Program-made: the position numbers and the translations under genes
From: a virus
Length of the DNA stretch: 46,239 bases
Strand: one strand, 5' to 3'
IMG/VR virus record: IMGVR_UViG_3300021376_000108
Location: 1 to 46,239 of that record
Notes under the pieces: generated by a model
Seen by the model: the letters and a program-made list of their open reading frames with translations, nothing else
What the model was told of the DNA's origin: nothing
The model's database searches: none
Shown here: one piece after another, positions 328 through 23,375 of the stretch
How positions within the stretch are numbered: the first letter of the stretch is position 1
Layout of the letters: each line of letters opens with the position of its first letter

Positions 328-876
328 TTACCCCCACACGTTGAAAATATATTTGGGCACCAGTCCTGCATTGGATCCTGCATGCCATGCAGTGCGTCGG
401 GGCCATTTCCAAGTGCTGCCTGTTTCTTGATTGTACAAACAATCATCCTCCACAATGAGCACATGTCCTGGTGCTGGTGGACTAATATGACAATGAAATC
501 TTACTATTTCTTTTTTGTGTTCCAAAGTTTTTTCATCATCGGTGATATCCCAATGCCAAGGTGCCACATCACCTGGTTTTACTCTGCTGATCCAAGCATT
601 GATATAACTTTTCATACCCACCCATGCACAAAACTTTTCCACTATCTTTTTGTCAAAATTTGTGTTTGGTAAGTACATGTCCCAACTGGCATTGCCTCCT
701 TCATGTTTCATTTTGTATCCAGCTTCTCGCAAGGGTTTGGCTACTTCTTCTACCCCTGGCACAAGATGCCCCACATCATGTCTTGGTCCAATGTAAGCAC
801 CCTGTTGATTTTCAATGTCTCTTATCACATTGCTCCAATCTATTATGTTTTTGCAGTTGCCCACATACTCAAGCAT
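328..876 (-). CDS. Fe(II)/2-oxoglutarate oxygenase-like protein (aspartyl/asparaginyl hydroxylase type)
   Basis: A 182-residue protein with a double-stranded beta-helix (cupin) pattern. A candidate HxD metal motif is His108-Asp110 (PWHWDI), and a candidate distal His is His165 in WHAGSNAG, a layout typical of aspartyl/asparaginyl beta-hydroxylase-like enzymes. Such enzymes hydroxylate proteins or small molecules using Fe(II) and 2-oxoglutarate. The start at 876 has a strong Shine-Dalgarno sequence (AGGAGAT) about 9 bases upstream and overlaps the previous stop by 8 bases. A second, diverged oxygenase-like protein lies two genes upstream. The substrate is unknown; a role in modifying the product of the nearby radical SAM and glycosyltransferase genes is inferred only from position. 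Confidence 0.7.
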   Translation of the reverse strand: MLEYVGNCKNIIDWSNVIRDIENQQGAYIGPRHDVGHLVPGVEEVAKPLREAGYKMKHEGGNASWDMYLPNTNFDKKIVEKFCAWVGMKSYINAWISRVKPGDVAPWHWDITDDEKTLEHKKEIVRFHCHISPPAPGHVLIVEDDCLYNQETGSTWKWPRRTAWHAGSNAGLVPKYIFNVWG

Positions 877-1501
877 TTAAAAAATCTCCTGGCCATTCAC
901 CAATATTCATGTGTATAGTGTTGTCATATATTTTCCATATGTCATACGTGTCTCCTTGCAACGCTGTCTTGGATCTTGGATGTGTGTGATCAATCACAAC
1001 ACTTTCATACACAGATTTGTGAACATATCTGTCTTGTTCGGACGCAGTGGCATACCAATCCATACAATGCATGCAGTTTTTGTTGTCCAAATAGAATGTG
1101 TGTGGATAAATGTTAATTTTTCTTAGATTTTTATCGCAAATATCTTTAAGCACATTTTTTATTTGCTGTTGCCAGTTGGGAATTTCTTCTATCGCGCCTG
1201 TATGTATCATTTCGCTGACACTGCGATCATACCATTTAAAATCTATCAGTCTATTTTTTCTATCAATATCAATAATTTCTGGTGCATAACTTGTGCCACT
1301 CACCTTTACTATGTTGTTCACTTCGTCTTCAAAAAATCTTTGCCTTTCGCTGTCAGAGAGATTAGATGCAGCATATTGATTGGGATTGAAATTCATGCGG
1401 AAAATAGTTTTAGCAGGATTAATTAATGGTTCATAAATTAGATTGGCCACCATACGCATACCATTTTGCCATTTGTAAAAATTACTCCAGTATTCAATCA
1501 T
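869..1501 (-). CDS. Possible kinase-fold phage protein, catalytic loop degenerate
   Basis: A 210-residue protein. It has a weak protein-kinase-like order of motifs: a beta-strand pair near residues 28-42, an acidic helix (FFEDEVNNIV, near 56-65), a loop KINIYPHTFYLD near 128-139, and a short MDW where kinases carry DFG. In the loop the catalytic Asp position reads Asn and the metal-binding Asn position reads Thr. If the fold is right, it is either a pseudokinase or a divergent phosphotransferase. The start has a clear Shine-Dalgarno sequence (GAGGAT, spacing about 6). It overlaps both neighbours by exactly 8 bases and sits between the two oxygenase-like genes. The family assignment is speculative; the gene itself is secure. 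Confidence 0.5.
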   Translation of the reverse strand: MIEYWSNFYKWQNGMRMVANLIYEPLINPAKTIFRMNFNPNQYAASNLSDSERQRFFEDEVNNIVKVSGTSYAPEIIDIDRKNRLIDFKWYDRSVSEMIHTGAIEEIPNWQQQIKNVLKDICDKNLRKINIYPHTFYLDNKNCMHCMDWYATASEQDRYVHKSVYESVVIDHTHPRSKTALQGDTYDIWKIYDNTIHMNIGEWPGDFLNA

Positions 1502-2189
1502 GATCTATCCTCACTTTAAATCCGCAATTTTCGGAAATGTTATTTAATTCTGTCAAATATTCTTGTTCTAAATCCAGATGTATTTCTTCATCTGTGATAG
1601 CTTTAAAATTATTAATAATTTTTGCCTTATTTGCTTTGTTTAACCAGATAGAAAAAGTTTGATCAAAAAGATATCTCAAATTGTAAGGGCTATCAATGGC
1701 TCTAATTTTTATCTGGATTGGATTTTTTAATTGACTTTTATTGAGCAAACGTCTTACTACCAATTGGATTCTGTCTAAATAACCAAAATTTACAGCAGTG
1801 TGTATGCGTGATGTGTCCATGAGATAGCAACAGTTGTCCACCAATGTAGGATACATTTTGCCATGGGCTAGATCTATCAAATAACTGTGTTCACCCTGCA
1901 AATTGACATGATATCTGTCATCTATGTCTGCATGTGCTGTGTAATTGCAGCCAGGTTTGATCATCACCAGTCTTGCTTGACCCACAGGACCCAATTGTTC
2001 AAAAAAGGAAATTAAATTGGCATGTTGAAATGCCGGTTTTAGATGCCAAGGATCATAAAACCAATTTCCACTGGGTGAATTGATTTCGATTTTTTGCATT
2101 AAGTCCTCAGGATCTTCATCAAATTTGCAGTTTGTGATAGCTTTTAAGATATCAGCTGATGAAAATTTAATATCTATTTTTTGCAGCAT
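1494..2189 (-). CDS. Fe(II)/2-oxoglutarate oxygenase-like protein (aspartyl/asparaginyl hydroxylase family)
   Basis: A 231-residue protein starting at the ATG at 2189 (MLQKIDIKFSS). The frame is open further upstream, but that extension would run through the divergent intergenic region into the opposite-strand gene, so it is rejected. The pattern matches aspartyl/asparaginyl beta-hydroxylases: HAD at His86-Asp88 (YTAHADIDDRYH), a second His at 130 (SRIHTAVN), and Arg140 placed to bind 2-oxoglutarate (DRIQLVVR). Residues after about 150 form a charged C-terminal extension of unknown role. It is first in a four-gene minus-strand run and divergent from the plus-strand QueC-like gene. It overlaps the next gene by 8 bases (ATGATTGA). 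Confidence 0.75.
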   Translation of the reverse strand: MLQKIDIKFSSADILKAITNCKFDEDPEDLMQKIEINSPSGNWFYDPWHLKPAFQHANLISFFEQLGPVGQARLVMIKPGCNYTAHADIDDRYHVNLQGEHSYLIDLAHGKMYPTLVDNCCYLMDTSRIHTAVNFGYLDRIQLVVRRLLNKSQLKNPIQIKIRAIDSPYNLRYLFDQTFSIWLNKANKAKIINNFKAITDEEIHLDLEQEYLTELNNISENCGFKVRIDHD

Positions 2190-2229
2190 AATAGTAATTA
2201 TCGCAAAAAAAATGTGGTTATGAAAATCC

Positions 2230-2237
2230 GATAAATA
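2230..2237 (+). promoter_or_regulatory. Late-promoter-like octamer GATAAATA before the plus-strand block
   Basis: GATAAATA lies 13 bases before the ATG of the plus-strand PP-loop gene, in a 61-base divergent gap. It matches the NATAAATA late-promoter form of T4-like phages (T4 consensus TATAAATA). The spacing would give a short leader. In this AT-rich DNA a single octamer is weak evidence; repeated placement before other starts in the window is the main support. Confidence 0.4.
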
Positions 2238-2250
2238 CCTTGTCCATAAT

Positions 2251-3066
2251 ATGCCTAAATTTGAATTGATCAAAAAAATTTATCGTACAAGTGTGTTCAG
2301 CAAAATTTTGCATGAGCAGGACGGAGTAATACTTCCTTTTCAACTCAATTGGAAAAAAATTGGTATCAGCGTGAGCGGAGGAGCCGACAGTGCTCTAATG
2401 TCCTATCTCCTGTGCAATATCATTACTGAAAATAGATGCGAAACTGCAGTGCATATCATCACCAATGTGAGATGCTGGAAAACTCGACCTTGGCAGCAAC
2501 AAAACAGCATAGATGTATATAATTGGTTGCTGAAAAAATTCAAACACATACAGTTTTATCGTCATGAAAATTTTATAGCTCCTGACTTGGAGTGGGGTTC
2601 CAAAGGACCCAATATCGTGGATGAATATGGAAAATTAAAAAGCGGCAATCAAATTGAACTGCGAGCACACGCAGAATATGTGGCTCACACGCAGCAATTA
2701 GATGCTTGGTATTGCGGGGTTACTAAAAACCCTGATAAAGAATTTGATGGAAGACTGGTGGATCGAGATGTTGTCATAGACGCAGACTTAGATATTACAC
2801 TGGATCGTCTGATCAAAGCACACATGGGCGGCTATGCTTGTCACCCATTCACATATGTGCAGAAGGACTGGATAGTTGCCCAATATAAAAAATTAGGCAT
2901 TATGGACCTATTCGATCTTACTCGCAGTTGTGAAGGTGACAAAGAAACTCATCCCAAAGTCTTTGGTGACTTGGATTACAGGACCTACAAGCCTGGGCTG
3001 CCCGTGCCAGTGTGTGGAGAATGTTTTTGGTGTAAAGAAAGAAATTGGGGGTTAAACAATGCGTGA
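2251..3066 (+). CDS. QueC-like PP-loop ATPase with C-terminal four-Cys zinc site
   Basis: A 271-residue protein. The PP-loop ATP-binding motif is SGGADS at residues 42-47, preceded by a hydrophobic strand (KKIGISV). The C-terminus carries Cys227, Cys255, Cys258 and Cys261 (CGECFWCKER), resembling the zinc site of QueC (7-cyano-7-deazaguanine synthase), which adenylates a carboxylate and converts it to a nitrile via an amide. The gap between the first and second Cys (28) is wider than the spacing I recall for QueC. No queD, queE, folE or DNA transglycosylase gene is seen here, so queuosine or deazaguanine DNA synthesis is not supported by this window. Sugar amidotransferases of the WbpG/PseA type are another PP-loop family found in glycan clusters and are a reasonable alternative. 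It is first in a three-gene plus-strand block with two radical SAM genes and overlaps the next gene by 8 bases. Confidence 0.7.
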   Translation: MPKFELIKKIYRTSVFSKILHEQDGVILPFQLNWKKIGISVSGGADSALMSYLLCNIITENRCETAVHIITNVRCWKTRPWQQQNSIDVYNWLLKKFKHIQFYRHENFIAPDLEWGSKGPNIVDEYGKLKSGNQIELRAHAEYVAHTQQLDAWYCGVTKNPDKEFDGRLVDRDVVIDADLDITLDRLIKAHMGGYACHPFTYVQKDWIVAQYKKLGIMDLFDLTRSCEGDKETHPKVFGDLDYRTYKPGLPVPVCGECFWCKERNWGLNNA

Positions 3067-4477
3067 TCACAGTGAATATTGGATGAATGAGGAAGATTCA
3101 CAACTGGGCAAATGGCAGAGAGAAATAGAATCTGTCACAGGCACATCTACCTACTGTATATTGCCTTGGATACACTTTGCCACCAGACCCAATGGTGACA
3201 TGCGACTGTGTTGTTCAGCCAATGCCAGTGGTGCCGGATCAGATCACACAGTGGGTATTATTAAACGAGAAGATGGCAAGCCTGCCAATTTTGGAGTGGA
3301 CACTCCTATGAGTGCTTGGAATAATGACTACATGAAAAGTGTGAGAACCACCATGTTAAAAGGTCAAATACCTGCCAGTTGCACCAAGTGTTTTGCTGAA
3401 GAAAGTGTGGGAGTGGTCAGCAAAAGGATTTGGGAGACTGGCACTTGGCACCGTGATGGGGTTGATGTGCCTGAATTGATACGACAGACTAAAGCAGATG
3501 GCACAGTGCCTGAAAAATTGTTGTATCTGGACCTGCGTTTAGGTCACACCTGCAATATCAAATGTGTGATGTGTTCACCACATGACAGCAGCAAGTGGGT
3601 ACAAGATTGGCAACAACTGATGCCACAACTGCAGAATAAAGAAGTTAAAGATCAAATTCAGTGGGATAGAAAGGAATTCAATAATTTTTGGCATGAAAAA
3701 GATACCTTCTGGCAAGAAATGTACAAACAAATACCCAATCTGAAACAAGTGTATTTTGCCGGTGGTGAACCTCTTATGATCAAAGAACATAAAACATTCA
3801 TAGAAGAAATTGTTCGTCAAGGATATCAGGATACTATATTGTTGCGTTACAATTCTAATGGCATACTGGTGGATGAAGATTTAATCAAATTATGGAGTAA
3901 ATTTAAAAAAGTAAAATTTGCTGTGAGCATGGATGCCACTCATCAGCGTGATGAATACATACGTTTTCCCACTCAATGGAGTACTGTGGAAAAGAATTTA
4001 CATATGTTGGACAATACTCCTGACAACATTCAAGTGAGTTTGGCCACTGCCATACAAATTTTTAATATCAAACATCTTCCAGATTTTATGAAATGGAAAA
4101 TTAAGAGTGGTTTTAAAAAATTAAACGTAGGCACTGTGCCTGGCGGAGTACAAATGGGTGGTGGATTAGTCAACATGCATTTATTGTACATACCAACTTT
4201 TTTAAGCATACAAATATTGCCACAAGAAGACAAAAAACAAATAAGAGCACTGTTTATGGATTTTAAAGATTGGTTGTGGCACAATTATAGACAGGACGAT
4301 GATTTTTGGAAAATAAATCCTTATGGTTGGAGACGTTGGGAGGCAGTGTTGGATCATATGGACTCACAGGATCATTCTAGATTGTTGCCTGGTTTCAAAG
4401 ATTACGTGAATAAATTAGATGCTATTAGAGGAATTTCTGCAGTGCATACCTTTCCTGAACTGGCACATTTGTTATGA
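3059..4477 (+). CDS. Radical SAM enzyme with N-terminal twitch-type Cys domain
   Basis: A 472-residue protein. The N-terminal domain has Cys33 (CILPWIHFA), Cys51/52 (LCCSA), Cys108 and Cys111 (CTKC), a twitch/SPASM-like set likely to bind an auxiliary iron-sulfur cluster. The radical SAM CxxxCxxC motif is Cys165/169/172 (CNIKCVMC), followed by an AGGEPL segment and YNSNG. This arrangement matches the N-terminal twitch radical SAM proteins found in bacteria and phages. It generates a 5'-deoxyadenosyl radical; the substrate is unknown. A relative with the same layout lies at 7949-9220 on the other strand. The start has GGGGG six to seven bases upstream, overlaps the PP-loop gene by 8 bases, and the stop overlaps the next start as ATGA. 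Confidence 0.88.
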   Translation: MRDHSEYWMNEEDSQLGKWQREIESVTGTSTYCILPWIHFATRPNGDMRLCCSANASGAGSDHTVGIIKREDGKPANFGVDTPMSAWNNDYMKSVRTTMLKGQIPASCTKCFAEESVGVVSKRIWETGTWHRDGVDVPELIRQTKADGTVPEKLLYLDLRLGHTCNIKCVMCSPHDSSKWVQDWQQLMPQLQNKEVKDQIQWDRKEFNNFWHEKDTFWQEMYKQIPNLKQVYFAGGEPLMIKEHKTFIEEIVRQGYQDTILLRYNSNGILVDEDLIKLWSKFKKVKFAVSMDATHQRDEYIRFPTQWSTVEKNLHMLDNTPDNIQVSLATAIQIFNIKHLPDFMKWKIKSGFKKLNVGTVPGGVQMGGGLVNMHLLYIPTFLSIQILPQEDKKQIRALFMDFKDWLWHNYRQDDDFWKINPYGWRRWEAVLDHMDSQDHSRLLPGFKDYVNKLDAIRGISAVHTFPELAHLL

Positions 4478-5433
4478 TAACTCAAGTTTACAATCCGCAA
4501 CGTAAAGACGTCTTACGTTTGGAATTTATGATAGGTAATACCTGCAATTATAAGTGTTGGTATTGTTTTGAAGGATCACATGAAGGCACGCACAGGTGGA
4601 CTAATGACTTGGATCAACTGGTGATAAATTTTGTTCATTTGTTTGATAGATACAGAGCGATAGGCAAACGCAAACTAGAACTGCACATAGTGGGAGGAGA
4701 ACCCACTTTGTGGCCTCAGTTGGGAGAATTCATAGAAAAAATACGCAAACAAATTCCGTCACATATTTCTATCAGCAGCAACGGCAGTAGAACACTGAGA
4801 TGGTGGGAACAATATGCACATGTGTTTGATAAAATTTTATTGAGTTGTCATCATCAACAAGTGCAAGTGCAAGATTTTATCAAAGTGGCTGACATGTGCC
4901 ATAAAAAAGGACGCAGTCCCACTGTGATGATGTTGATGGACCCTACTGCTTGGCAAAAATGTTTAGATTTAATTGAAACTTTAAAAACCAGTCGTTACAA
5001 ATGGTTTATAGTGGCCATGGAGGTCATGCATAAGACTATCAAATTCACTGACGAACAAAAAAAATTTGTTGCTGACCCAATTAAACGTATGCCTAATCTT
5101 TGGACAATCTTTCGTCAATCTAAACACATGAAAGGTTCGCCCAAAGTTAAATTTGAAGATGGCTCCATTAAATCTGTGAATAGAAACTGGATTGTGCTGA
5201 ACAAACAGAACAATTTTTATGGCTGGATGTGCAACATTGGAGTGGATAGCATGATGATAGATCCTGCTGGCGTGATCACAGCAGCTTGTAGAACAAAATT
5301 ATTTGAACAGTACAACATATATGATACTGATTTCACAAAAAAATTCAATCCTAATATTAAGCCAAAAATTTGTGACAAAAAAAATTCCTGCATGTGCCAA
5401 CCTGAAAGTTTGTTAGACAAATATAGAATTTAA
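4474..5433 (+). CDS. Radical SAM enzyme with C-terminal SPASM-like Cys motif (family B)
   Basis: A 319-residue protein with the radical SAM motif at Cys24/28/31 (CNYKCWYC), a VGGEPT strand and a SSNGSRT strand. The C-terminus has Cys253 (GWMCNIG), Cys272, Cys300, Cys306 and Cys308, probably ligands of one or more extra iron-sulfur clusters. Three minus-strand genes (6074-7054, 7036-7956, 10793-11794) share this C-terminal pattern and the N-terminal LG-N-x-CNYxC signature, so this is one paralogous family. The start overlaps the preceding stop as ATGA, which suggests translational coupling. It is convergent with the SGNH hydrolase gene, and the two stop codons overlap, so there is no room for a terminator. 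The substrate is unknown. Confidence 0.88.
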   Translation: MITQVYNPQRKDVLRLEFMIGNTCNYKCWYCFEGSHEGTHRWTNDLDQLVINFVHLFDRYRAIGKRKLELHIVGGEPTLWPQLGEFIEKIRKQIPSHISISSNGSRTLRWWEQYAHVFDKILLSCHHQQVQVQDFIKVADMCHKKGRSPTVMMLMDPTAWQKCLDLIETLKTSRYKWFIVAMEVMHKTIKFTDEQKKFVADPIKRMPNLWTIFRQSKHMKGSPKVKFEDGSIKSVNRNWIVLNKQNNFYGWMCNIGVDSMMIDPAGVITAACRTKLFEQYNIYDTDFTKKFNPNIKPKICDKKNSCMCQPESLLDKYRI

Positions 5434-6110
5434 TCTTTAAAGGCGTTCAGAGCTAATTTCAACACCCAGCGATCACCTTCTGGACCCATATGATTGGTGA
5501 TAAAAAGGGATGGTATATGTTTGAAAAATGTTTTATCCAGCAACTGACGAAATTTATCAGTATTACAACTGATGTAATACAATGTAGTATCCACTTGAGT
5601 GCCATGAGTCCATTGGTATAATATTTTTATGTCTTTCAGTTCTGCTTTGTGCCATTCTTCTATCTGTGGTTGTCCAAAACTGTAAAAATGAATTATCTTT
5701 CCTTTCACATTTTTTAAAAATTCATTATCCAGCCAATAGGCCACTGCTTGGAACTCCAAATCTTCTTTTTCATAATCTTGTAGATGCTCAATATACATCT
5801 GTGCAGCTTTATGTCTGCCGTTATTCTCATTAAAAGATGAGCCGTGATTGAAATCACCCTTAGGATGATATATCCTATGTGTTTCGGTCCAGCAGAATAC
5901 TGTGTAATCTAAATTTTTGTATCTATCGAAGTTTTTTGTGTAGTCTATCACTGTGGTCCAATAGCTGGAACCCCCCACTCCTGTGTGCACAATTTTACTG
6001 TCGAGATGATCTGCCAGTTGTCCCATCCAATTGTGTTTTTCGGCCCTGGCACAAAAACTGTCTCCAAAAAATCCTATCTGCTTTTGGGCACTTGCACGTC
6101 CGCGATACAT
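5430..6110 (-). CDS. SGNH/GDSL-like hydrolase
   Basis: A 226-residue protein. Block I is FFGDSF with Ser18 as the likely nucleophile. A block II-like glycine is in GVGGSSYW (about 44-51). A candidate catalytic His is His207 in NHMGPEGD, although the Asp usually three residues before it is not visible. SGNH enzymes remove or transfer acyl groups, often acetyl, on carbohydrates. I chose the ATG at 6110 because AGGAGAG stands six bases upstream. An in-frame ATG at 6129-6131 has no ribosome site and would deepen the overlap with the upstream radical SAM gene. It is the last gene of the main minus-strand run. O-acyl editing of a glycan would fit the neighbours but is inferred. Confidence 0.7.
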   Translation of the reverse strand: MYRGRASAQKQIGFFGDSFCARAEKHNWMGQLADHLDSKIVHTGVGGSSYWTTVIDYTKNFDRYKNLDYTVFCWTETHRIYHPKGDFNHGSSFNENNGRHKAAQMYIEHLQDYEKEDLEFQAVAYWLDNEFLKNVKGKIIHFYSFGQPQIEEWHKAELKDIKILYQWTHGTQVDTTLYYISCNTDKFRQLLDKTFFKHIPSLFITNHMGPEGDRWVLKLALNAFKD

Positions 6111-7054
6111 ACGCAACTCTCCTGTGTACATTTGGTTGGTTTGTTGGGAAATATAATATCGTCATCATCTATCCTCTTGCCAACAAAATTTTTGTAATTC
6201 ATATAACAACCTGCTCCTAATTTAAGTGTCTGATCATAATTTATGTAGATACGATTAACTCCTATCCAGCATTGATAACCCCTCCAGTCAACTATGCGAT
6301 TGGTTACTGCCCAGTAAGCGTCAAATGACTGCTCCCCTTGATCCGTAACTGCTATCATGCTGCGATCTACATCAGCATTTTCTCCGTCTAATCTCTTCTG
6401 CTCTCGCACTGGTTTGTTGAAAATTATTTTTTGCTCATCGGTGTAGCTGTACAATTGTCTTAGACTGGAGATATCAGTCTCCCAAGTGTGAAACAGAGGT
6501 TTGGCCTGTATGCCCCATTCCTTTCTGCGACTGAGTTTTAACATATCGATGATTGCTAAACATTTTTCAAATAGTGTGGGCATCATCATCACGTGGCATG
6601 TGACCTCTACTCCCATGTCTGTTAGCATATCACACACAGCTGATATGTGACTGCCATCTGCATATTCAGGGTGAATGCTGAAGTGTGCAGCAAAAAAATT
6701 TTTGCCATATGTGCGCCAATAGTCCTTACTGGCTGCAGCATTACTGGCCACTATCACTATGCTATTTTTTTTTGAATTGATGTATTGGCACAGTGTGATG
6801 AAATCACCATACATCAATGGTTCTCCACCACCGAATTTCCATATGTAATTTTTTATGCCAATTTGTGAATAGTGTGTGATGACCTTGTCTACAAATTTCA
6901 TAGCTGATTCTATATTAGCCCATGCATGGCTGCCGCTGCGCAGTTCATCTATACAATAAGAGCATTTATAATTGCACGTGTTGCCTAGCAACCATTCTAT
7001 CTCTAACACGTCATTAAATAACTTGTGCTTGTAATCTATGCTGTGTATCTGCAT
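6074..7054 (-). CDS. Radical SAM enzyme with C-terminal SPASM-like Cys motif (family B)
   Basis: A 326-residue protein from the ATG at 7054, which has a GAGA ribosome-site-like stretch upstream. The longer open frame to 7111 lies inside the preceding gene and is not needed. The radical SAM motif is Cys27/31/34 (CNYKCSYC). The GGEP motif appears as FGGGEPL and the next conserved strand as VASNAAAS. C-terminal Cys are at 262, 283, 309, 314 and 316, the same spacing class as its three paralogues. It overlaps the upstream gene by 19 bases and the SGNH gene by 37. It acts in the cytoplasm with S-adenosylmethionine and an iron-sulfur cluster; the substrate is unknown. Confidence 0.87.
   Translation of the reverse strand: MQIHSIDYKHKLFNDVLEIEWLLGNTCNYKCSYCIDELRSGSHAWANIESAMKFVDKVITHYSQIGIKNYIWKFGGGEPLMYGDFITLCQYINSKKNSIVIVASNAAASKDYWRTYGKNFFAAHFSIHPEYADGSHISAVCDMLTDMGVEVTCHVMMMPTLFEKCLAIIDMLKLSRRKEWGIQAKPLFHTWETDISSLRQLYSYTDEQKIIFNKPVREQKRLDGENADVDRSMIAVTDQGEQSFDAYWAVTNRIVDWRGYQCWIGVNRIYINYDQTLKLGAGCYMNYKNFVGKRIDDDDIIFPNKPTKCTQESCVCIADVQVPKSR
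6117..6123 (-). promoter_or_regulatory. Ribosome binding site AGGAGAG that fixes the SGNH hydrolase start
   Basis: AGGAGAG ends six bases before the ATG at 6110, inside the end of the upstream radical SAM gene. It decides between two in-frame start codons 21 bases apart: the upstream ATG (6129-6131) has no such site. Confidence 0.7.
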
Positions 7055-7956
7055 ATTTTCTCTTTGGTTATGTTTATGTCTGCAGCACAAGTACACCAAT
7101 CTCTTGTGCACACTATGAACTCTGTTGGCAAAATGAAAGTGTTATTGTAGATGTTGCCCAAACTGCCTCCCACTCTACAAGTGGCCCTATGCACTTCACC
7201 ATCCCAATTGATCATGAGACTTTCCACACCCGCTTGACACTGCCATCCTTTGAAATGATTGATTTTTTCTATCAACAAGTCATTCACATTGCACTGCCTG
7301 CTGCCATCTATGATGGTATTTTTTGGTGGAGTATGATTTTCTTTGTCCAAAAATTTTCTCTCTGCTTTGCTGTATTTCTCCATGTCCACAAAATTATCGT
7401 GACTTTCGGTCCAGCGTATGGGTCTCAAAGCATATCTGATACCGATTCCCTTCAGTTGGGCACACACTGTTTTAACGTCATTAAGACGCCCCGGCAACAT
7501 CATCAAGTGTACTAGAACATTTTTGTTGTTGCTGCCCTTATACGCCTTTATAATTGAATCTAATACACGTTTATAATTGTATTCTAAATGCACACTGAAC
7601 ACCATGTGATCCACGTATTCACTCAGTAATTTTTGGTAATATTCTGCAGTTCTGGTGCCATTGGAGGTGATGTTGATCCAACTAACTTTTGGTCTAATGT
7701 GCTGCAATAATTCCACAAGATTTGGATGCACACAGGGTTCTCCTCCAGTGAAACTGATGCGTAATTTTTTGTTAGTTATTAATGTTGTCAGTTTGTCAGC
7801 AGTGTTTTTCAACACTGTGATATCCTGATGTTCACTGTGATTGTCATGTATCTCAGTGGGACAATATGAGCAGTCATAATTGCATCTTTTGCCCAAATTC
7901 CATTCAATTTTCACAGCCTGTTTGTAATGAGGATAAAGATTTTCTACTTTATACAT
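7036..7956 (-). CDS. Radical SAM/SPASM-like enzyme (family B)
   Basis: A 306-residue protein from the ATG at 7956, which overlaps the previous stop by 8 bases. A TTG nine bases further upstream is also in frame but less likely. The radical SAM motif is Cys25/29/32 (CNYDCSYC), with FTGGEP and TSNGTRT strands. C-terminal Cys are at 240 (GWQCQAG), 260, 283, 288 and 290. It is the closest in layout to a standard radical SAM/SPASM enzyme among the four paralogues. SPASM-type proteins modify peptides, sugars or other small molecules using extra iron-sulfur clusters. No peptide substrate gene is seen nearby. Confidence 0.88.
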   Translation of the reverse strand: MYKVENLYPHYKQAVKIEWNLGKRCNYDCSYCPTEIHDNHSEHQDITVLKNTADKLTTLITNKKLRISFTGGEPCVHPNLVELLQHIRPKVSWINITSNGTRTAEYYQKLLSEYVDHMVFSVHLEYNYKRVLDSIIKAYKGSNNKNVLVHLMMLPGRLNDVKTVCAQLKGIGIRYALRPIRWTESHDNFVDMEKYSKAERKFLDKENHTPPKNTIIDGSRQCNVNDLLIEKINHFKGWQCQAGVESLMINWDGEVHRATCRVGGSLGNIYNNTFILPTEFIVCTRDWCTCAADINITKEKICRYTA

Positions 7957-9220
7957 ACTTTGCAAACTCTGGATTTATTTTTTCAAATGGGCCTTGATTG
8001 CGTGTGGCATCCAATTCTCTATTGAAATCCACGCAGTCATGCCACAAATGATTGAGATCGGTGGCTTGTAAAAAATTAATATTGTCCTGTATCTGTTGCA
8101 AAGTAATTTTTTCCAGCACAGGATGTTGTTGCACAATTTGATAATTTTTAATTTTAGTTTTCATTAATTCCAGTTTGCGTATTACTCTTCTTTTCAATTG
8201 TGGATGTATGACCTGTGCACTGAGCACTTTAGGATAATTCACTCTGTGACTGTAGAACACAATGCCCAATTTGTCTAAAAAATAATCAATCACTTGATCA
8301 ATCTGCATGATGTTGTTGACCTGCACTGTGAATGCTCCCACTATGCGTGTGACTTTGGGTATCTGTTTCATTATTTTGATGTTTTCAATCACGTCCTGGA
8401 ATTTTCCGTTGCCTCGCACATATTCATACACTTCGTTAAGACCATCTATGCTCACGTTCACTGCAACGCTTTTGAATTTCGGCCAATATTCATGCACGGT
8501 TCTGCTGCCTTTGATACCCAGCACTGTGCCGTTGGTGGCATATTTTATTTCGATATTCTGGCCATATCTGCTCAACATGTCCAGTATTTTATAGTGTGTT
8601 GGATCCATAAGTGGTTCACCGCCTGCGAATTCCACACGTCGAAAATGTGGCAGCAATTTTTCAAGATTTTCCCAAAATTCTGCTTTGCTGGAAAATAAAT
8701 CCACATATGGAGCCTCTGTGAGTCCTAGTTTTTCCACAGCATCCACAAGATAATTGCCTTCTGCTTTGTAGTGATGCACAATGTGTTTCCAGTCTTTCCA
8801 TGATGTGCTGTCTAATGGATTACACATTCTACATCTAAGATTGCATAGATTATTGATTTTTATCTCTATGGTAGGCAGTTCAAAAGGCATACTGTAATCT
8901 TCACGCAGAGTATCTAATGCATTGGGATATAGATTTATTCTTGCCTCAGGTGAACTGTCGCTGATGTGCCGCTGTCGTAAACTCTGCACTCCTTGTGCTT
9001 CTAAATCAAAACAAGGCTGGCACACATCAGGTTTTTCATTGTTCAAGACCTGTTTGCGTATCTCTTTCATTTTGTCACTGTTCCATGCCTGTTCCAAAGT
9101 TTGTTGCTGTATGTTTGCTATGGGCAAACTGCGGCAGCATATCTTAATAGCTCCATCTTCTCTGGTGGCCAACCCTGTGAAAGGATGCATGCAAAATGTA
9201 CAACTGTTATTATTTTTCAT
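7949..9220 (-). CDS. Radical SAM enzyme with N-terminal twitch-type Cys domain
   Basis: A 423-residue protein. The N-terminal Cys set is Cys7, Cys10, Cys28/29 (ICCRS) and Cys67/Cys70 (CQPC), typical of a twitch domain placed before the radical SAM barrel. The radical SAM motif is Cys126/130/133 (CNLRCRMC), followed by FAGGEPL, YATNGT and NVSIDG. It has the same architecture as the 472-residue protein at 3059-4477 but is clearly diverged and lacks part of its N-terminal insertion. The start at 9220 has AGG about nine bases upstream across an A-rich spacer and overlaps the methyltransferase stop by 11 bases. The substrate is unknown. Confidence 0.9.
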   Translation of the reverse strand: MKNNNSCTFCMHPFTGLATREDGAIKICCRSLPIANIQQQTLEQAWNSDKMKEIRKQVLNNEKPDVCQPCFDLEAQGVQSLRQRHISDSSPEARINLYPNALDTLREDYSMPFELPTIEIKINNLCNLRCRMCNPLDSTSWKDWKHIVHHYKAEGNYLVDAVEKLGLTEAPYVDLFSSKAEFWENLEKLLPHFRRVEFAGGEPLMDPTHYKILDMLSRYGQNIEIKYATNGTVLGIKGSRTVHEYWPKFKSVAVNVSIDGLNEVYEYVRGNGKFQDVIENIKIMKQIPKVTRIVGAFTVQVNNIMQIDQVIDYFLDKLGIVFYSHRVNYPKVLSAQVIHPQLKRRVIRKLELMKTKIKNYQIVQQHPVLEKITLQQIQDNINFLQATDLNHLWHDCVDFNRELDATRNQGPFEKINPEFAKYV

Positions 9221-9824
9221 TTTTTTTACCTATGATCATAAAACGTTTGTATTTTTCGGTTTGTAGTTCCACAGGTTCCAACAGTGGAGTTATACCGCTA
9301 CTGTCAACAAAGTCATTGAGAGATTGTTTGATGTTGACATGCTCCGCTATCTCAAAATTGTTGCTTTGAATGGCCAAAGTTGCACTATGTGGCACAAGTT
9401 GCAGCCATGTATCATATTCTAACTGGGTGATGTGTTCACAAGCAGTGTTAATAATTAGATCAAATTTGTTATAATTTTTATATTTGGTCATATCTTGAGT
9501 AATCGCAAAGAATCTACCAGCTATTTCATATTGTTTATTCATGTTTCTTGCCACAACTTCACACTTTTTGTCTTTGTCCATGCTGGTTATTTCTTTCACA
9601 AACAAATTGCTGTTGAACATCAGTGTGGCCAACACACCATACCAACCACCACATATGAGAACTTTCTGATCAAATGGCCTGGTCAGTTTACTCAAATGCT
9701 CAATCAACCAAACCTTGCTGTTGATTTGACCTTTCCAAAAACTTTCCAATGTGCGATATTTGTCATCGGATTGCCTGATAGCATCCATCCAGAACAAAAT
9801 GTCGTCTATTTTAATTTTTAACAA
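9210..9824 (-). CDS. Class I SAM-dependent methyltransferase-like protein
   Basis: A protein of 204 residues if it starts at the TTG at 9824, or 192 residues from the ATG at 9788. A Rossmann-type motif I reads VLICGGWYG (residues 55-63), an acidic strand end is SMDKD (about 82-85), and FDLIIN lies near 121-126, the usual order of class I methyltransferases. I prefer the TTG because GGGGGT lies five bases upstream and because the conserved-looking start KIKIDDILFW precedes the ATG. The frame continues upstream inside the preceding radical SAM gene but shows no domain there. The methyl acceptor is unknown; methylation of a sugar or a radical SAM product fits the setting. Confidence 0.7.
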   Translation of the reverse strand: MLKIKIDDILFWMDAIRQSDDKYRTLESFWKGQINSKVWLIEHLSKLTRPFDQKVLICGGWYGVLATLMFNSNLFVKEITSMDKDKKCEVVARNMNKQYEIAGRFFAITQDMTKYKNYNKFDLIINTACEHITQLEYDTWLQLVPHSATLAIQSNNFEIAEHVNIKQSLNDFVDSSGITPLLEPVELQTEKYKRFMIIGKKNEK

Positions 9825-10800
9825 ATTGCACCCCCAGTTTGTCAAATGAACCACACTGCTTGCTGCATTCTTGCAGCCCTGTGGTGGACCATTTGGATTC
9901 AATTTTTTCAAAATAAGCACTGTCAAATATTTCTTGCAGAGTTTGTCTGTGCAGATTGGGAAATTGTCCAATCTTGTCAATGTAATCTATTCTGCTCTCC
10001 TGCATAGGTGGTATCCATTCCATGTCTAGCCAACAACAAGGAGACACATTGCCACATGAACTCACATACAATTGTTTGTATTTCTGTGCTTTGCACACAA
10101 TTATAGGATTTTCTTCTTTTTGTGATGATTCAATCAGTGGTATCATGTCTCTGCTGATGCTGCTGGCATACAGTTTATGAGTTGGTCTTCCCTGTTCATC
10201 TATCACTTGATGAAAATCTTTTTTGAATCTACTTGTGTGTTTCACTGTGAATTCTTTGAAACCCATGTCTATGCTGATTTGTTTGGCAGTGTTGATTTGA
10301 TGTTCATTGTGTGCAAATACCAGCATGTGCCATCTGGCATGACCTCCTGCTGTGATGAATGCTTGTGCATTCTGTATTATTTTGTTGTAATCTGTGGCCA
10401 CCCTATACAATTGATGCGTGTCTTGCAGTCCATCGATTCCAAATATCACACGCACCTGCAATTTAGCCAGTTTTATCCACCATTCTGCGTCTCGAGCACT
10501 GCCGTTTGTGTGCATGCTCAATCTGATTGCTGAATTGGTGCTGCGAAGATATTCATAAATTTCCAATGTGTCTCTTGCCACCACAGGATCTCCAAGATTA
10601 CCACACATAAAAAGACTGTGCAACTGTTGAATAAAATCTTTTGGGAACCATTTTTTAAATAATTCTAAATCTATTTCCTCCAGTTTGATAAAAGGATTTA
10701 TTGGGCCACCATTTATGCGCCTTGGGCACATAGGACAGCGTGCTTGACACTTGCTGGTGTTTTCCAAATGAATTTCTCTTATGTCGGACAGTTTATACAT
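9811..10800 (-). CDS. Radical SAM enzyme with SPASM-like C-terminus (distinct subfamily)
   Basis: A 329-residue protein with radical SAM motif Cys18/22/25 (CQARCPMC), which differs from the CNY-type of the four paralogues. The C-terminal Cys set is Cys236, Cys249, Cys255/256 (SCGNVSPCCW) and Cys312/Cys316 (CSKQC), a good SPASM-like arrangement with the glycine before the second Cys. The usual GGEP strand reads CGNLGDP, as in several SPASM-type enzymes. The ATG at 10800 overlaps the upstream stop by 8 bases (ATGTATAA). The substrate is unknown. It represents a third radical SAM lineage in the island. Confidence 0.88.
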   Translation of the reverse strand: MYKLSDIREIHLENTSKCQARCPMCPRRINGGPINPFIKLEEIDLELFKKWFPKDFIQQLHSLFMCGNLGDPVVARDTLEIYEYLRSTNSAIRLSMHTNGSARDAEWWIKLAKLQVRVIFGIDGLQDTHQLYRVATDYNKIIQNAQAFITAGGHARWHMLVFAHNEHQINTAKQISIDMGFKEFTVKHTSRFKKDFHQVIDEQGRPTHKLYASSISRDMIPLIESSQKEENPIIVCKAQKYKQLYVSSCGNVSPCCWLDMEWIPPMQESRIDYIDKIGQFPNLHRQTLQEIFDSAYFEKIESKWSTTGLQECSKQCGSFDKLGVQFVKN

Positions 10801-11794
10801 GTTTGACCTTGGGGATTTTAGAATCTGCTGAACTCACACAGCTGGGAGTTAAACAGATATTTGGTTTATCAAACAACTTGAACCCTTGTTCTATGTTGCC
10901 TAAAGGTTCATCATGACAACTGTAACTTCTTTTCACTTCACCTCCTGGTTCACGAATAATACAGCTTTGATAACCTGCATTACAATACCAACCTTTGAAT
11001 TTGTTGAAACCAAAAGCATTGAATCTTTCTGCTTGATCCATAAAATACACATTGCCTTTGCTGTCTTTCAACTCAATTTGAAATAGATCTTCTATCACTG
11101 TGCCCTTTTTGATCTGTTGCGGGAAACCAGTCTGCATTTGATCAATTTGTTTTGCACTATATCCTTCTATCACTCTGCTGGCAGTGGGGTCACTTTGAGG
11201 TTTTAAAGTCACATTGATACCTCTTGAATGAAATCTAGTACATCTATCAAAATATTCATTAAATCTTGTGGGCACCATGACTTGATTAATTGTGACAAAC
11301 ACATTGTGAGACATCAACATTAGTATTTTATCTCCGAATGATTGTTCATCTGCGAATTCCGCATGAAAACTTGCAGTGATACTGCGTCTATTCAGTCTAG
11401 CTGTGGTATCCAACCATCTCTGCCACCATTTGACTGATGGACTGAGATTGGTGGTCATGTGTATGCTTTGATATTCAGGTTGTTTATCATCACTGTAGTG
11501 TTGTATCAGTTTTAAAAAATCCTTGTATGCAGTGGGTTCACCACCTGAAAAACTGAAATGAAAGTTGGAAAATCCATTTGATCTAGCCTGTCTCTTTATT
11601 TCATCCACAGTGTTGGTGTAAACCTGCAATGATCTATGATCTTTTGTTTTGCTCTTGGCATAAGGCCAACAGTAAGAACAATCATAATTGCAAAAACGTG
11701 CTAGAATCCAACTCACAGAAAATAATTTGCTGTTCAACATGGTTTTTTGTCCAAAACTTTGGATATCTTCAAAAGGAATGTTGGTATCAATCAT
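10793..11794 (-). CDS. Radical SAM enzyme, family B, with one C-terminal Cys replaced by Ser
   Basis: A 333-residue protein from the ATG at 11794, which overlaps the preceding stop by 8 bases. The frame is open to 11836 inside the upstream gene, but that extension is unlikely to be used. The radical SAM motif is Cys35/39/42 (CNYDCSYC), with FSGGEPT. The C-terminal motif has Cys271 (GWYCNAG), Cys293, Cys314 and Cys319, but the position of the final Cys of the CxC pair is Ser321. That may alter or remove one cluster ligand. It shares the ending ADxxIPK with its paralogues. The substrate is unknown. Confidence 0.87.
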   Translation of the reverse strand: MIDTNIPFEDIQSFGQKTMLNSKLFSVSWILARFCNYDCSYCWPYAKSKTKDHRSLQVYTNTVDEIKRQARSNGFSNFHFSFSGGEPTAYKDFLKLIQHYSDDKQPEYQSIHMTTNLSPSVKWWQRWLDTTARLNRRSITASFHAEFADEQSFGDKILMLMSHNVFVTINQVMVPTRFNEYFDRCTRFHSRGINVTLKPQSDPTASRVIEGYSAKQIDQMQTGFPQQIKKGTVIEDLFQIELKDSKGNVYFMDQAERFNAFGFNKFKGWYCNAGYQSCIIREPGGEVKRSYSCHDEPLGNIEQGFKLFDKPNICLTPSCVSSADSKIPKVKHV

Positions 11795-12476
11795 GTGTTG
11801 AGCTTTCAAATTGTGCTTGCAGCCATGCAAAGTCATTTATTTTTTTCAAAGCAGTAGGATTTCCTCTATGTTGTTCACCATATTGTCTGCCTAACACTGC
11901 CCCTTGTATTGTTTGTCGACCAAAAGGTTTTTCTTTGCCTTCATTACACCATATGTGCAATCTTTTTTCTGTTTCTACGTCATTCTGTCGATCAATAATC
12001 TTACTGCTCAGTTTTACACACTCTCTAAAAGCTGACTTCCATGCACTGAAAGCATCTGTGTTGAAGGCTGTGACATTTGATATCTGTGGCATAGGAATAA
12101 ACCAATCTGAAATACTGCTGGTCATATCTGTGCTGTCCATATTCATCTGCATGGTTTTTCTTTTTGGCAGTAATTTTACTCCTCCATAGCCATATTCTAA
12201 ATTATTCACTGGATTCCTGCTGCGCCACACGTGCACTGCTTGTAGATGATATAGTTTAGGCACAAATTTGAAATCAAAATCAGGTTCAATCACTGCATCT
12301 GCATCAACCACCCAGAACATTTTAGTGATGCTCCTGTTGGCAGCTTGTTTGTGTGCTTCATGTATGCCTTTGACACCATGTACCCGCTGCGCAAATCCAA
12401 ATCTCTGCTTTAACATTTGCCAATTGTGATCTGCGTTTGATTCTTGATAACTTATGAACATTATATCAAACATCAT
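11787..12476 (-). CDS. GT-A-type glycosyltransferase-like protein (pair 1)
   Basis: A 229-residue protein. It starts with a beta-strand FDIMFISYQES, has RVHGVKGIHEAH near 31-42 and a DxD-type motif at Asp58-Asp60 (WVVDADAVIEPDF), typical of metal-dependent GT-A glycosyltransferases. The neighbouring gene at 12473-13387 is a clear paralogue that shares the N-terminal motif, the DxD and a C-terminal AWKSAFRECVK-type helix. The start overlaps the previous stop as ATGA. The sugar donor and acceptor are unknown. Phage enzymes of this kind could glycosylate host surface, virion protein or modified bases; the setting favours glycan assembly. Confidence 0.65.
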   Translation of the reverse strand: MMFDIMFISYQESNADHNWQMLKQRFGFAQRVHGVKGIHEAHKQAANRSITKMFWVVDADAVIEPDFDFKFVPKLYHLQAVHVWRSRNPVNNLEYGYGGVKLLPKRKTMQMNMDSTDMTSSISDWFIPMPQISNVTAFNTDAFSAWKSAFRECVKLSSKIIDRQNDVETEKRLHIWCNEGKEKPFGRQTIQGAVLGRQYGEQHRGNPTALKKINDFAWLQAQFESSTHD

Positions 12477-13387
12477 ATGGTTTTCCTTATGGTCCTTGGT
12501 GTGTTAATGTAGACTTTTTTGAAGAAGTCGCTCTGTTCATCCATCAAAGGGTGTGTTGGAAAATCTAGATCAATGTGTTTTTTTATATTGTTGCCTAAAA
12601 AACATATCTTATCCAATATCTGTTGATTGTTTTCAAGTCCATGTGAACTACTGATCCAAAGATCTTCTAATTTTTTGAAGTCTCTCACCTCAGTAAAGTC
12701 CCAAGGAGTTGCAGCCGGCGCAAATATTCTGTTGCAGGCTTCTCTTGCTCCCAATATGCTGTAAATTCCGTTTTCAACATCACAACCCACAGTCATCCAT
12801 ATGCACAATCTGTGCACATTTTGCCACCATAGTTCGTTTTTAGATTTAATTTTTACATTCTTATTGATACTCATTTTCACTCCTTCACGAAATCCAGCAC
12901 GCCATGCTTGCTTGGGAGTGGCGTTGACATAACTGGTTGAAAAATTTTCATTAAATTGGAAAAGATTTTTGAAGAAGCAAAATTCAATCTCATTACTGTC
13001 CTGTCCTGCAAAATTTTCGTGAGTTTTCATAGTTTTAACAAAGTCTTTGGTCCACAATTTTAAACTTCCATTACCATATCTTAAACCATTCACATTGATG
13101 TGCCCACACCAACTGAATATCCAAGTGTCATCCATGCCCATTTGTTTCAGATTTATTTCCATATCTAATATTTTTGGGTCTAATTGGGTGTCTCCGTCCA
13201 CAGTCATGAAATAATGTGTGCTTGACAGCTCACCACAGGCCTTGTGTGCAGTATCTGAACCATGCACGCCATGTATTCTTTTGGCCCAAGGTACTTTTCG
13301 CACAAGATCCGCGTAGTTTTTTTCACAATTGGGTTCATCATAACTTAGAAAAATTATATCGCAGTCTTTGATAGCAATTTTATCCAT
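12473..13387 (-). CDS. GT-A-type glycosyltransferase-like protein (pair 1)
   Basis: A 304-residue protein with the strand CDIIFLSYDEPN, the shared block RIHGVHGSDTAHK (37-49) and a DxD-type motif at Asp64-Asp66 (TVDGDTQLDP). It is a longer paralogue of the next gene downstream; an AWRAGFREGVK helix and RLCIW stretch align with that gene. The extra C-terminal 50-60 residues carry no motif that I recognise. It starts at 13387 with an 8-base overlap on the previous stop (ATGGATAA). The donor and acceptor are unknown. Confidence 0.65.
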   Translation of the reverse strand: MDKIAIKDCDIIFLSYDEPNCEKNYADLVRKVPWAKRIHGVHGSDTAHKACGELSSTHYFMTVDGDTQLDPKILDMEINLKQMGMDDTWIFSWCGHINVNGLRYGNGSLKLWTKDFVKTMKTHENFAGQDSNEIEFCFFKNLFQFNENFSTSYVNATPKQAWRAGFREGVKMSINKNVKIKSKNELWWQNVHRLCIWMTVGCDVENGIYSILGAREACNRIFAPAATPWDFTEVRDFKKLEDLWISSSHGLENNQQILDKICFLGNNIKKHIDLDFPTHPLMDEQSDFFKKVYINTPRTIRKTI

Positions 13388-13955
13388 GTGTTCTTACAAC
13401 TCCATAGTCGAATATTTTTTTACAATAGAAATCAATGTTATAATCTTGCTGCCAATCATAATTCACACTGTCTTGATCACACAGCATTTTAAGATCTACT
13501 TCAAAGATATTAAGTATTTGTGTGGCATCATTGCGTTTACAACAATAAAACATATGGGATCTATTTTGATCATCAGGATTAAATGCTTGTAGTGTTTTTT
13601 TAAAACGACTAGAAGCAGAAAATTCTATGCGATTAAGTGTTTTGTTCACAGTGATACATATGGCCGAATCATTTTGGTGTGTGTCAGGTATTTTATACAC
13701 ATTTGGATTAATGATTTCAGTGGTGGATACAGTGTTGTTGGAATCTATGTGCTGCAAAACTCCTTTTTTTCTCAAACTGTAACTGCTATTGTCATAGTGC
13801 ACTTCATAATTGCTCATGTTTTCCATGCCCATGATAAATTTTTCACCCAAATTTAATTCTATTTCCATGCTGTTTGGCATTTGAGTAGTGCTGCATCCTA
13901 GACAACGTCCTGTGGCAGGATCAAATTGTACAAACATTTTAGTTTGTGTGTTCAT
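13380..13955 (-). CDS. Hypothetical protein
   Basis: A 191-residue protein beginning MNTQTKMFVQFDPATG, with no signal peptide or membrane segment. The alternating hydrophobic pattern suggests a mostly beta-stranded domain. Cysteines occur at the start (RCLGC) and near the C-terminus (YCCK), but they do not form a recognised metal site. It sits between the two glycosyltransferase pairs, overlaps both neighbours (17 and 8 bases), and must be co-translated with them. I do not recognise the family; it could be an accessory or substrate-binding protein for the pathway, but nothing in the sequence shows this. Confidence 0.7.
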   Translation of the reverse strand: MNTQTKMFVQFDPATGRCLGCSTTQMPNSMEIELNLGEKFIMGMENMSNYEVHYDNSSYSLRKKGVLQHIDSNNTVSTTEIINPNVYKIPDTHQNDSAICITVNKTLNRIEFSASSRFKKTLQAFNPDDQNRSHMFYCCKRNDATQILNIFEVDLKMLCDQDSVNYDWQQDYNIDFYCKKIFDYGVVRTHG

Positions 13956-15641: not shown

Positions 15642-15988
15642 GTGATTTGCACTTTGCCTCTTTCCTGAATCAATCTGTTGTATTCAGTGTGGTAGGAATT
15701 AAGATTGCCTTGATACAGGTTCCAAATTTCATCATAAAACTCCTGCAAATTTGATACCAGCACTGGCAGCCTATAATCATCCAACAAAATCACGTCAGAC
15801 TGTCGCTGTTCATTGAGATAATTTTTACAGAGTGCAATTAATTTTTCATTCACAGTGAATTGATGACCCTGATGAAACCATATGTTGCTGTCCAAAAATT
15901 TATCCTGCAGAATCTGCAACTGATTGTTGAAACTTTGGGTGGCAATAGACATCTCCAAAATTTCAATAGCATTTATATTTTTTTTCAT
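15638..15988 (-). CDS. Small conserved-type phage protein, first gene of the accessory operon
   Basis: A 116-residue protein from the ATG at 15988. An in-frame TTG at 16003 overlaps the -10 element of the promoter and would lie outside the transcript. The sequence is helical, with an ILLDDYRLPV segment near residue 67 and QEFYDEIWNLY followed by YHTEYNRL. This resembles small uncharacterised proteins of T4-like marine phages, but I cannot give a function. The predicted transcript starts only about 8 bases before the ATG, so translation may be nearly leaderless. The stop overlaps the first glycosyltransferase start as ATGA. Confidence 0.7.
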   Translation of the reverse strand: MKKNINAIEILEMSIATQSFNNQLQILQDKFLDSNIWFHQGHQFTVNEKLIALCKNYLNEQRQSDVILLDDYRLPVLVSNLQEFYDEIWNLYQGNLNSYHTEYNRLIQERGKVQIT

Positions 15989-16002
15989 GATTTTACTATG
16001 CA

Positions 16003-16031: not shown

Positions 16032-16083
16032 TTGTTTCAAATATTTAGATGATAATTTGATAGGTGTGATGTAATTTGGTAAA

Positions 16084-23367: not shown

Positions 23368-23375
23368 TATTTATT
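23368..23375 (-). promoter_or_regulatory. Late-promoter-like octamer AATAAATA
   Basis: AATAAATA lies 22 bases before the structural gene start at 23345, in the 28-base gap after the giant gene and touching its stop codon. Between the octamer and the ATG there is an AAGGA ribosome site, so promoter, leader and ribosome site are in a sensible order. Confidence 0.55.

Follow-up and report, generated by a model that had tools for sequence, protein, structure and literature searches.

A conserved multi-enzyme radical SAM gene island adjoining the tail genes of uncultured phages

The island and its genes

IMG/VR virus record IMGVR_UViG_3300021376_000108 is a linear sequence of 46,239 bases, analysed here over its whole length ('the window'). 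It contains an island of genes for radical S-adenosylmethionine (rSAM) enzymes, interleaved with genes for a PP-loop ATPase, a methyltransferase (MT)-like protein, Fe(II)/2-oxoglutarate (2OG) oxygenase-like proteins and glycosyltransferase (GT)-like proteins. rSAM enzymes carry out some of the hardest chemistry in biology and, to our knowledge, phages seldom carry more than one or two of them. A search with PF04055 (curated cut-off 29.5 bits) found exactly seven rSAM genes in the whole record, all complete open frames, with six scoring above the cut-off and one just below it; these are termed A to G (Table 1). They are the same seven complete genes with a CxxxCxxC motif that had been proposed in an initial annotation of this DNA. 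The interval given there, 2251-11794, is too narrow, since the genes overlap end to end and are fully tiled from 328 to 16003, making the island at least that long. As to the neighbours named in that annotation, the PP-loop ATPase is a solid assignment, whilst the MT and the SGNH hydrolase fall below profile cut-offs and remain motif readings. Four upstream GTs had also been claimed: the one adjoining D has weak matches to PF00535 and DUF7338 and the other three are without Pfam support. All 16 loci collected through the neighbouring tail gene carry four GTs.

The pattern TTGACTTT-N15-TATACT, which resembles a sigma-70 promoter, has a single exact match in the window. This match heads the island and lies in the intergenic gap that separates the last tail gene (16084) from the first island gene (16003). 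It is conserved in 10/10 aligned virus loci and visible in the same gap in 16/16 loci, with an invariant ATCTAAATA element just upstream of it (about 16042-16050), and is predicted to be a dedicated promoter for the GT-rSAM operon of the island. Other promoter types were considered. The T4-type late promoter TATAAATA is absent and NATAAATA occurs at no more than chance frequency; the late-type motif TCTAAATA is invariant in the gap between tail gene and island, but is not claimed as a late promoter because its two matches in the window are not above chance. Rfam and tRNA scans of the window gave no matches.

Table 1. Features of the island in the window, in order of position, followed by the gene runs.
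Coordinates	Strand	Feature	Basis or occurrence
328..876	-	Second AspH/2OG-like protein	Motif reading, no Pfam match; in 23/28 PP-anchored loci
869..1501	-	Small kinase-like protein	Motif reading; in 23/28 PP-anchored loci
1494..2273	-	AspH-like Fe(II)/2OG oxygenase (core)	PF05118 17.1 bits, below cut-off
2251..3066	+	QueC-family PP-loop ATPase, four invariant Cys (core)	PF06508 in relatives, motifs, model
3059..4477	+	rSAM E, N_Twi_rSAM (core)	NF033640 386 bits (cut-off 170)
4474..5433	+	rSAM F (frequent, replaceable)	PF04055 48.6 bits
5430..6131	-	SGNH-hydrolase-like (accessory)	PF16822 E 0.13, motif reading; in about 10 loci
6074..7111	-	rSAM G (accessory)	PF04055 24.5 bits, below cut-off 29.5
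7036..7965	-	rSAM B (core)	PF04055 49.4 bits
7949..9220	-	rSAM A, N_Twi_rSAM (core)	NF033640 317 bits (cut-off 170)
9210..9980	-	Class I MT-like (core)	PF05175 15.6 bits, below cut-off; motif reading
9811..10800	-	rSAM C (core), C-terminal SPASM domain	PF04055 35.2 bits; SPASM 26.3 bits (cut-off 21.5)
10793..11836	-	rSAM D (core)	PF04055 51-53 bits
11787..12476	-	GT, GT12 family, adjoins rSAM D	PF00535 17.5 bits and DUF7338, both below cut-off
12473..13387	-	GT-like, GT12 family	Clusters with 11787-12476
13380..13955	-	191-aa protein	Related c20-type gene at same place in relatives; no family over cut-off
13939..14904	-	GT-like, GT13939 family	Motif reading; conserved neighbour; phrog_1903 E 2.8e-7
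14784..15641	-	GT-like, GT14784 family	Motif reading, no Pfam over cut-off; 16/16 tail-anchored loci
15638..16003	-	First operon gene, 121 aa	Same place in 16/16 tail-gene relatives; no family over cut-off
16003..16031	-	Sigma-70-like promoter TTGACTTT-N15-TATACT	Head of island
16003 to 5430	-	Minus-strand run	Unknown gene, two GTs, unknown gene, two GT12, D, C, MT, A, B, G, SGNH
2251-5433	+	Plus-strand run	PP-loop, E, F
2273 to 328	-	Second minus-strand run	AspH-like oxygenase, kinase-like gene, second 2OG-like gene

Conservation of the gene set

The initial annotation had proposed that the island genes act in a single route to an unusual sugar, glycan or other small molecule, to be judged by whether they occur together in related viruses and whether several had been inactivated. 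Open reading frames were called by a greedy procedure and protein families defined as Louvain communities. Each scan for relatives kept the best 80 of more than 500, so that distant relatives may differ in behaviour; most of the virus contigs are fragments, and the anchored sets of loci include some near-duplicates. From the search with A the best 80 IMG/VR loci were kept, and family clustering was carried out on 81 loci, many of them clipped at contig ends, among which A, MT, B, C, D, E, the AspH-like oxygenase, the PP-loop protein and F were each found in 55-81. Because loci collected through A are biased, the analysis was repeated with the PP-loop protein as anchor (best 80 of at least 509 relatives). 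Of these, 28 loci exceeded 20.6 kb in length; every one had A, B, E and the AspH-like gene, 27 had C, and 25 each had D and MT, with five to nine rSAM genes per locus. With D as anchor (best 80 of at least 578 relatives; 24 long loci), MT was found in 24, B, C, E and GT12 in 23 each and A in 22. When the neighbouring tail gene was used as query, four GTs followed by D were found in 16/16 loci. The PP-loop, D and tail-gene anchors thus recover the same gene set, and the expected co-occurrence is present. In relatives of the window the core lies behind one conserved promoter together with four GT-like genes, adjoining tail-fibre genes.

Gene content is retained whilst gene order is not. A set of 41 loci, selected for holding A, B, C, D, E, MT and PP-loop genes and dereplicated at 4% divergence in A, showed 28 different core gene orders, so that retention is not explained by linkage alone; the AspH-like gene is found in 35 of these loci. 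Protein distances correlate between families (rho 0.82 for A-E and 0.71 for A-PP, the lowest being 0.16 for C-D), and most of the correlations exceed all of 200 permutations. Median pairwise ratios of non-synonymous to synonymous substitution (dN/dS) range from 0.05 to 0.31 (the pairs are not independent), with a median of 0.059 for E. No inactivating changes were found in the rSAM genes of the island, whose catalytic cysteines are intact. At the level of sequence, five core rSAM enzymes (A-E), the MT-like protein, the QueC-family PP-loop protein and usually the AspH-like oxygenase have thus been shown to be kept together under purifying selection, and very probably they form a single conserved pathway in large, uncultured tailed phages.

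The radical SAM enzymes

Conservation of cysteines was assessed in 72-134 unique sequences per family (13 for G). The CxxxCxxC cysteines are 99-100% conserved among relatives in all seven families, and the auxiliary sets are 97-100% conserved with the sole exception of C236 in family C (80%). It follows that the 'extra Cys sets' of the initial annotation were correctly recognised and that none has been inactivated. Profile searches also bear out the family, with PF04055 over cut-off in six of the seven, NF033640 in A and E, and SPASM in C. The NF033640 matches of A and E span nearly the whole profile, and the SPASM profile is clear in A and weak at the N-terminus of E. A is 58-100% identical across about 80 virus loci, with one at 40%. 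In D, C49/C53/C56 and C285/C307/C328/C333 are 100% conserved (n=120 sequences). B directly adjoins A in 35 of the 41 dereplicated loci, and its AlphaFold2 model (predicted local distance difference test score, pLDDT, 87) was matched by Foldseek to CteB, anSME, EpeE, SkfB, BlsE, MoaA and viperin, with template modelling (TM) scores of about 0.5-0.6 (normalised by B) and 11-19% identity. Among these fold neighbours are SPASM/twitch enzymes that act on peptides and on a sugar nucleoside; profile searches assign B to none of the matched enzymes.

The remaining two families are less constant. F is sometimes missing or replaced, being present in 29/41 dereplicated loci and adjoining E in 26 of those 29. 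G was detected by the PF04055 search at E 7e-7 per genome and by hmmscan at 3.1e-5, and retains its cluster cysteine motif (n=13 sequences); together with the SGNH gene it is accessory (about 8-10 of 81 loci). The small rSAM proteins F, G, c39 and c41 resemble one another and are swapped or added between phages. Two identities were rejected for such proteins: viperin profiles (NF038283/TIGR04278) match B, F and G at 38-55 bits over the N-terminal part only, against a cut-off of 180 for NF038283, and MoaA scores far under its cut-off for the small rSAM proteins.

The PP-loop enzyme and other island genes

The window's own copy of the PP-loop protein has only a weak match to PF01171, and its family was recognised through relatives: the QueC profile PF06508 matches 29 of 45 (best E 2e-9), and SGGxDS and CxxCxxC are found in 45/45, with the fourth cysteine, C227, invariant. 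Its AlphaFold2 model (pLDDT 94.6) has the tRNA thiolase NcsA and QueC as best Foldseek matches, at modest TM scores of 0.40-0.56. The SGGxDS loop, the CxxCxxC set and the fold are shared with the QueC family (PF06508), including the anti-phage proteins Cap9 and QatC (PMC13329287, PMC11996544). The island protein differs from QueC and QatC in having instead a W-rich R-W-PWQ motif and HPF, and in the spacing of its fourth cysteine, which is 9-28 residues (mostly 20 or 27) as against 8 in canonical QueC. None of the 45 relatives has the YxQxHxxE, VPxRN and YPDC motifs of canonical QueC, which are tied to preQ0 synthesis (PMC13329287), nor the QatC signatures D(x)4R(x)7WxR and CGxCxxRR (PMC13329287), and a Cap9 profile reached only E 0.43 against the PP-loop protein. 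Canonical QueC was rejected on these motifs, and the protein is placed as a divergent QueC-family enzyme, possibly of a new branch. By analogy it may adenylate a carboxylate and form an amide or a nitrile. QueC relatives that join deazaguanine to proteins exist (PMC11996544), which makes a phage-made deazaguanine one conceivable substrate.

In the MT-like protein the GGW-G motif and E182/H183 are invariant or nearly so; its relatives begin at about residue 54, so the conserved MT probably starts at an internal ATG. Likewise, the true start of the AspH-like gene probably lies downstream of 2273, and HxD (H114, D116), H158 and R168 are invariant in 78 sequences.

Relatives in cellular genomes and in other phages

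When 84,980 genomes were scanned with A, the relatives recovered were 23-37% identical to it and came mainly from metagenome-assembled genomes (MAGs) of Bdellovibrionota; several of these relatives are chromosomal as judged by neighbouring genes. Islands in these bacteria resemble that of the phages in holding families A, B, C, E and once D, along with relatives of c11, c13, the PP-loop protein and MT; they differ in their distance from A, in having no tail genes, and in lying beside rpoD- and dnaG-like or polysaccharide-type genes. In a Bdellovibrionia MAG (L089/L093; 917 kb contig JAUICP010000002.1, about 745-785 kb) the island adjoins rpoD- and dnaG-like genes, and about a dozen or more N_Twi-type rSAM genes were observed there with c11 and c13 relatives. 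Elsewhere a C-E-B-MT-C group has menaquinone-type genes and uvrA as neighbours (L129), and C, D and E are found together in a Halobacteriovoraceae contig of 328 kb (L122). Neighbours in Bdellovibrionota, read by eye, include GT2, GT39-like, carbamoyltransferase, YdjC and GmhA-like genes. In a tree of E, the virus clade (SH-aLRT support 97, quick method) includes Halobacteriovoraceae and Bdellovibrionales sequences and branches among Bdellovibrionota-rich groups; gene exchange between Bdellovibrionota and phages is likely.

Among cultured phages the island has distant counterparts only. Searches by tblastn with A, B, D, the PP-loop protein and GT12 against 50,697 cultured phage records gave no match at E 1e-5, and E gave weak matches only, to Vibrio phages K566 and K567 and one single-cell virus contig. 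In Vibrio phage K566 (OZ196521), GT-like genes are interspersed among four rSAM genes of the N_Twi type, but these four score only 63-102 bits to A or E, and B, C, D, the PP-loop and AspH genes are absent from the 25 kb examined. The rSAM module of Campylobacter phages CP220/CPt10 (Firehammervirus) packs five rSAM genes into about 9 kb of the T4-like CP220 genome, with two genes for nucleotide-diphospho-sugar transferases after them; three of the rSAM proteins are distant relatives of C (85-101 bits). This module has an amidinotransferase and is without A or E (nothing scores as N_Twi), D, or a recognised PP-loop or AspH gene, and tblastn searches with A, B, D or E did not retrieve it. The island is of the CP220 kind in that a single operon combines several rSAM genes and genes for sugar transferases. 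Campylobacter phages hold 11-12 rSAM genes, and the CP220 run has been described as an interchangeable module (PMC2853527). A marine T4-like viral genome of 183 kb, TARA_ERS488813_N000010, has 12 rSAM genes and an iron-sulphur (Fe-S) carrier gene (PMC5332604); compared by description only, it differs in that the accessible part of the account treats the genes as Fe-S metabolism and describes no pathway, core set or neighbourhood. The very high rSAM density noted in the initial annotation is therefore real, but with these precedents, one of them from 2017, the phenomenon is not wholly new. In pelagimyophages, rSAM cassettes have been placed in a tail-fibre/glycosyltransferase host-recognition cluster (PMC7029224), where the available text mentions them in passing as variable cassettes and describes no conserved multi-enzyme core. 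No published account of a conserved multi-rSAM core was found in a search of mainly open-access literature.

Larger contigs bearing the island were also examined. Twenty-five contigs have 4-16 rSAM genes each, and four of 357, 364, 217 and 201 kb have 10-13 above or near the cut-off, mostly within about 20-45 kb and few elsewhere. A QueE-like rSAM gene lies far outside the island in 7/7 large contigs (G026, G027, G009, G010, G028, G029, G030) and a QueD-like 6-pyruvoyltetrahydropterin synthase (PTPS) is found in 4/7; QueC (PF06508) or tRNA-guanine transglycosylase (TGT, PF01702) over cut-off was found in 0/7, though a divergent DpdA could escape and the contigs are possibly fragments. IscU scores over cut-off in the three largest contigs, two of which have profile-checked IscA-like genes and the third an IscA/SufA-type gene. 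IscU was rejected as a standard companion of the island, being found in 3/17 contigs overall, most of them fragments; a phage Fe-S supply would fit the load of Fe-S enzymes, which is suggestive only. The Fe-S assembly genes (L316:5540-6233, L317:1714-2420, L315:4367-4729; contigs G027, G009, G026) adjoin QueD-like and UvsE-like genes.

What the island may make

Tentatively, the island is read as a single pathway for building or tailoring a chemical group, with the GTs attaching it; the likeliest acceptors would be tail proteins of the virion or a surface glycan. The rSAM enzymes would make changes based on C-H bonds (epimerisation, rearrangement, cross-link or carbon-carbon bond) on an intermediate containing a sugar or an amino acid, which the 2OG oxygenase would hydroxylate and the MT would cap. 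The PP-loop enzyme would adenylate a carboxylate and join it to an amine or ammonia. Transfer of the completed group by the GTs would come last, the tail-fibre proteins being the probable target if it is placed on the virion. Differences in decoration between phages may stem from the accessory genes (rSAM, SGNH, acetyltransferase-like and additional 2OG genes), much as tailoring genes act in polysaccharide loci. The pairing of rSAM and GT genes in three phage lineages, together with the glycan-type neighbourhoods of bacterial homologues, favours a group transferred by GTs, and adjacency to tail genes favours a virion acceptor. Several points weigh the other way. The GT calls are mostly motif readings, and each scan sampled the best 80 of more than 500 relatives. 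Chromosomal homologues are without tail fibres, so a tail protein could not be the only acceptor. The sigma-70-like promoter means that the operon may be early and not timed with the tail genes, and so weakens any argument for a virion role from shared timing with the late tail genes. In addition, some N_Twi rSAM homologues in isolates (Paenibacillus, Poseidonocella) lie beside carrier-protein or polyketide synthase/non-ribosomal peptide synthetase (PKS/NRPS)-like genes, and these would also fit a small molecule.

The closest rival holds that SPASM/twitch rSAM enzymes and AspH-like hydroxylases act directly on side chains of tail fibres, to which the GTs then add sugars. AspH-type oxygenases hydroxylate protein side chains, the nearest folds of B include the peptide-modifying CteB, anSME, EpeE and SkfB, the island adjoins tail genes in 16/16 relatives, and its full tiling leaves no room for a small precursor-peptide gene. 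We consider this unlikely, given that no domain for recognition of ribosomally synthesised and post-translationally modified peptides (RiPPs) was found and that the chromosomal Bdellovibrionota versions are without tail genes. A RiPP cluster with an internal precursor was rejected: the overlapping genes leave no gap between 328 and 16003 into which a separate precursor gene would fit, although one might lie elsewhere. Auxiliary-cluster cysteines of the RiPP SPASM/twitch type are present and conserved, with SPASM matches in C and A and a weak one in E, and such cysteines are common to many non-RiPP enzymes. A diffusible small molecule (a nucleoside, amino-acid or sugar antibiotic, or a signal), glycosylated by the GTs and serving the infected cell or acting against competitors, is improbable. 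Its conserved core with variable tailoring genes resembles natural-product clusters, single N_Twi homologues are found in the carrier-protein and PKS/NRPS-like settings mentioned above, and B also resembles BlsE of blasticidin synthesis; against this, no transporter, resistance gene or carrier protein was recognised in the island, which moreover lies beside tail genes.

A further reading is that the island alters the O-antigen or capsule of the host envelope while infection proceeds, for instance so that other phages are kept out. This would suit GTs under a host-type promoter and the surface-glycan context of bacterial homologues, and is a role that has been proposed for the GTs of pelagimyophage host-recognition clusters (PMC7029224). 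It appears distinctly improbable, in that no polymerase, flippase or acyltransferase was recognised in the island and blocking co-infection through so many radical steps would be costly. Both the host-surface and the small-molecule reading are kept in contention by the sigma-70-like promoter and by the tail-less chromosomal versions. Hypermodification of DNA, possibly with an elaborated 7-deazaguanine, is very improbable: the phages would supply QueE-like and QueD enzymes, which occur in the large contigs as given above, and the island a QueC-like step, for which the family of the PP-loop enzyme speaks. QueD and QueE lie tens of kb from the island, however, the seven contigs have no TGT-family match (with the same proviso for DpdA), and the QueC catalytic motifs are missing from all 45 PP-loop relatives. 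Thymidylate-synthase-type hypermodification was rejected, PF00303 being found in 2/7 contigs only.

Beyond the favoured reading of a GT-transferred group, it is possible, if doubtful, that an undescribed radical pathway is common to large phages and Bdellovibrionota, in which five or more rSAM reactions, along with a new QueC-family branch, would build a decoration without known counterpart, attached to virions or surfaces. That five or more rSAM enzymes are kept through repeated shuffling in widespread uncultured phages suggests that the virus gains enough from the product to bear a large cost. Its identification would add new enzyme chemistry, including that of the new QueC-family branch, and would show whether phage particles, the host surface or something else is decorated. 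The distant modules in the cultured Vibrio phage K566 and Campylobacter phage CP220 open this question to experiment.

Further observations

The MAG contigs L090, L114 and L127/L145, assigned to Gammaproteobacteria, Neisseriaceae and Rickettsiales, have the appearance of mis-binned phage sequence and bear the island. Three phage-like MAG contigs (L090:4843-5067, L114:5123-5338, L127:8030-8251) encode a conserved protein of 71-74 aa (GDLPSKxGPGKxxKL), located between MT and either C or F; it is absent from the island of the window and could be a structural gene or a small substrate. Outside the island, the baseplate protein of the window (38097-41534) has counterparts in Salicola phage SCTP-2, Agrobacterium phage Atu_ph07 and Pseudomonas PA5oct-type jumbo phages, which it matches at about 35% identity along most of its length, and a single open frame of 4,907 aa (23374-38097) lies between the tail-fibre and baseplate genes.

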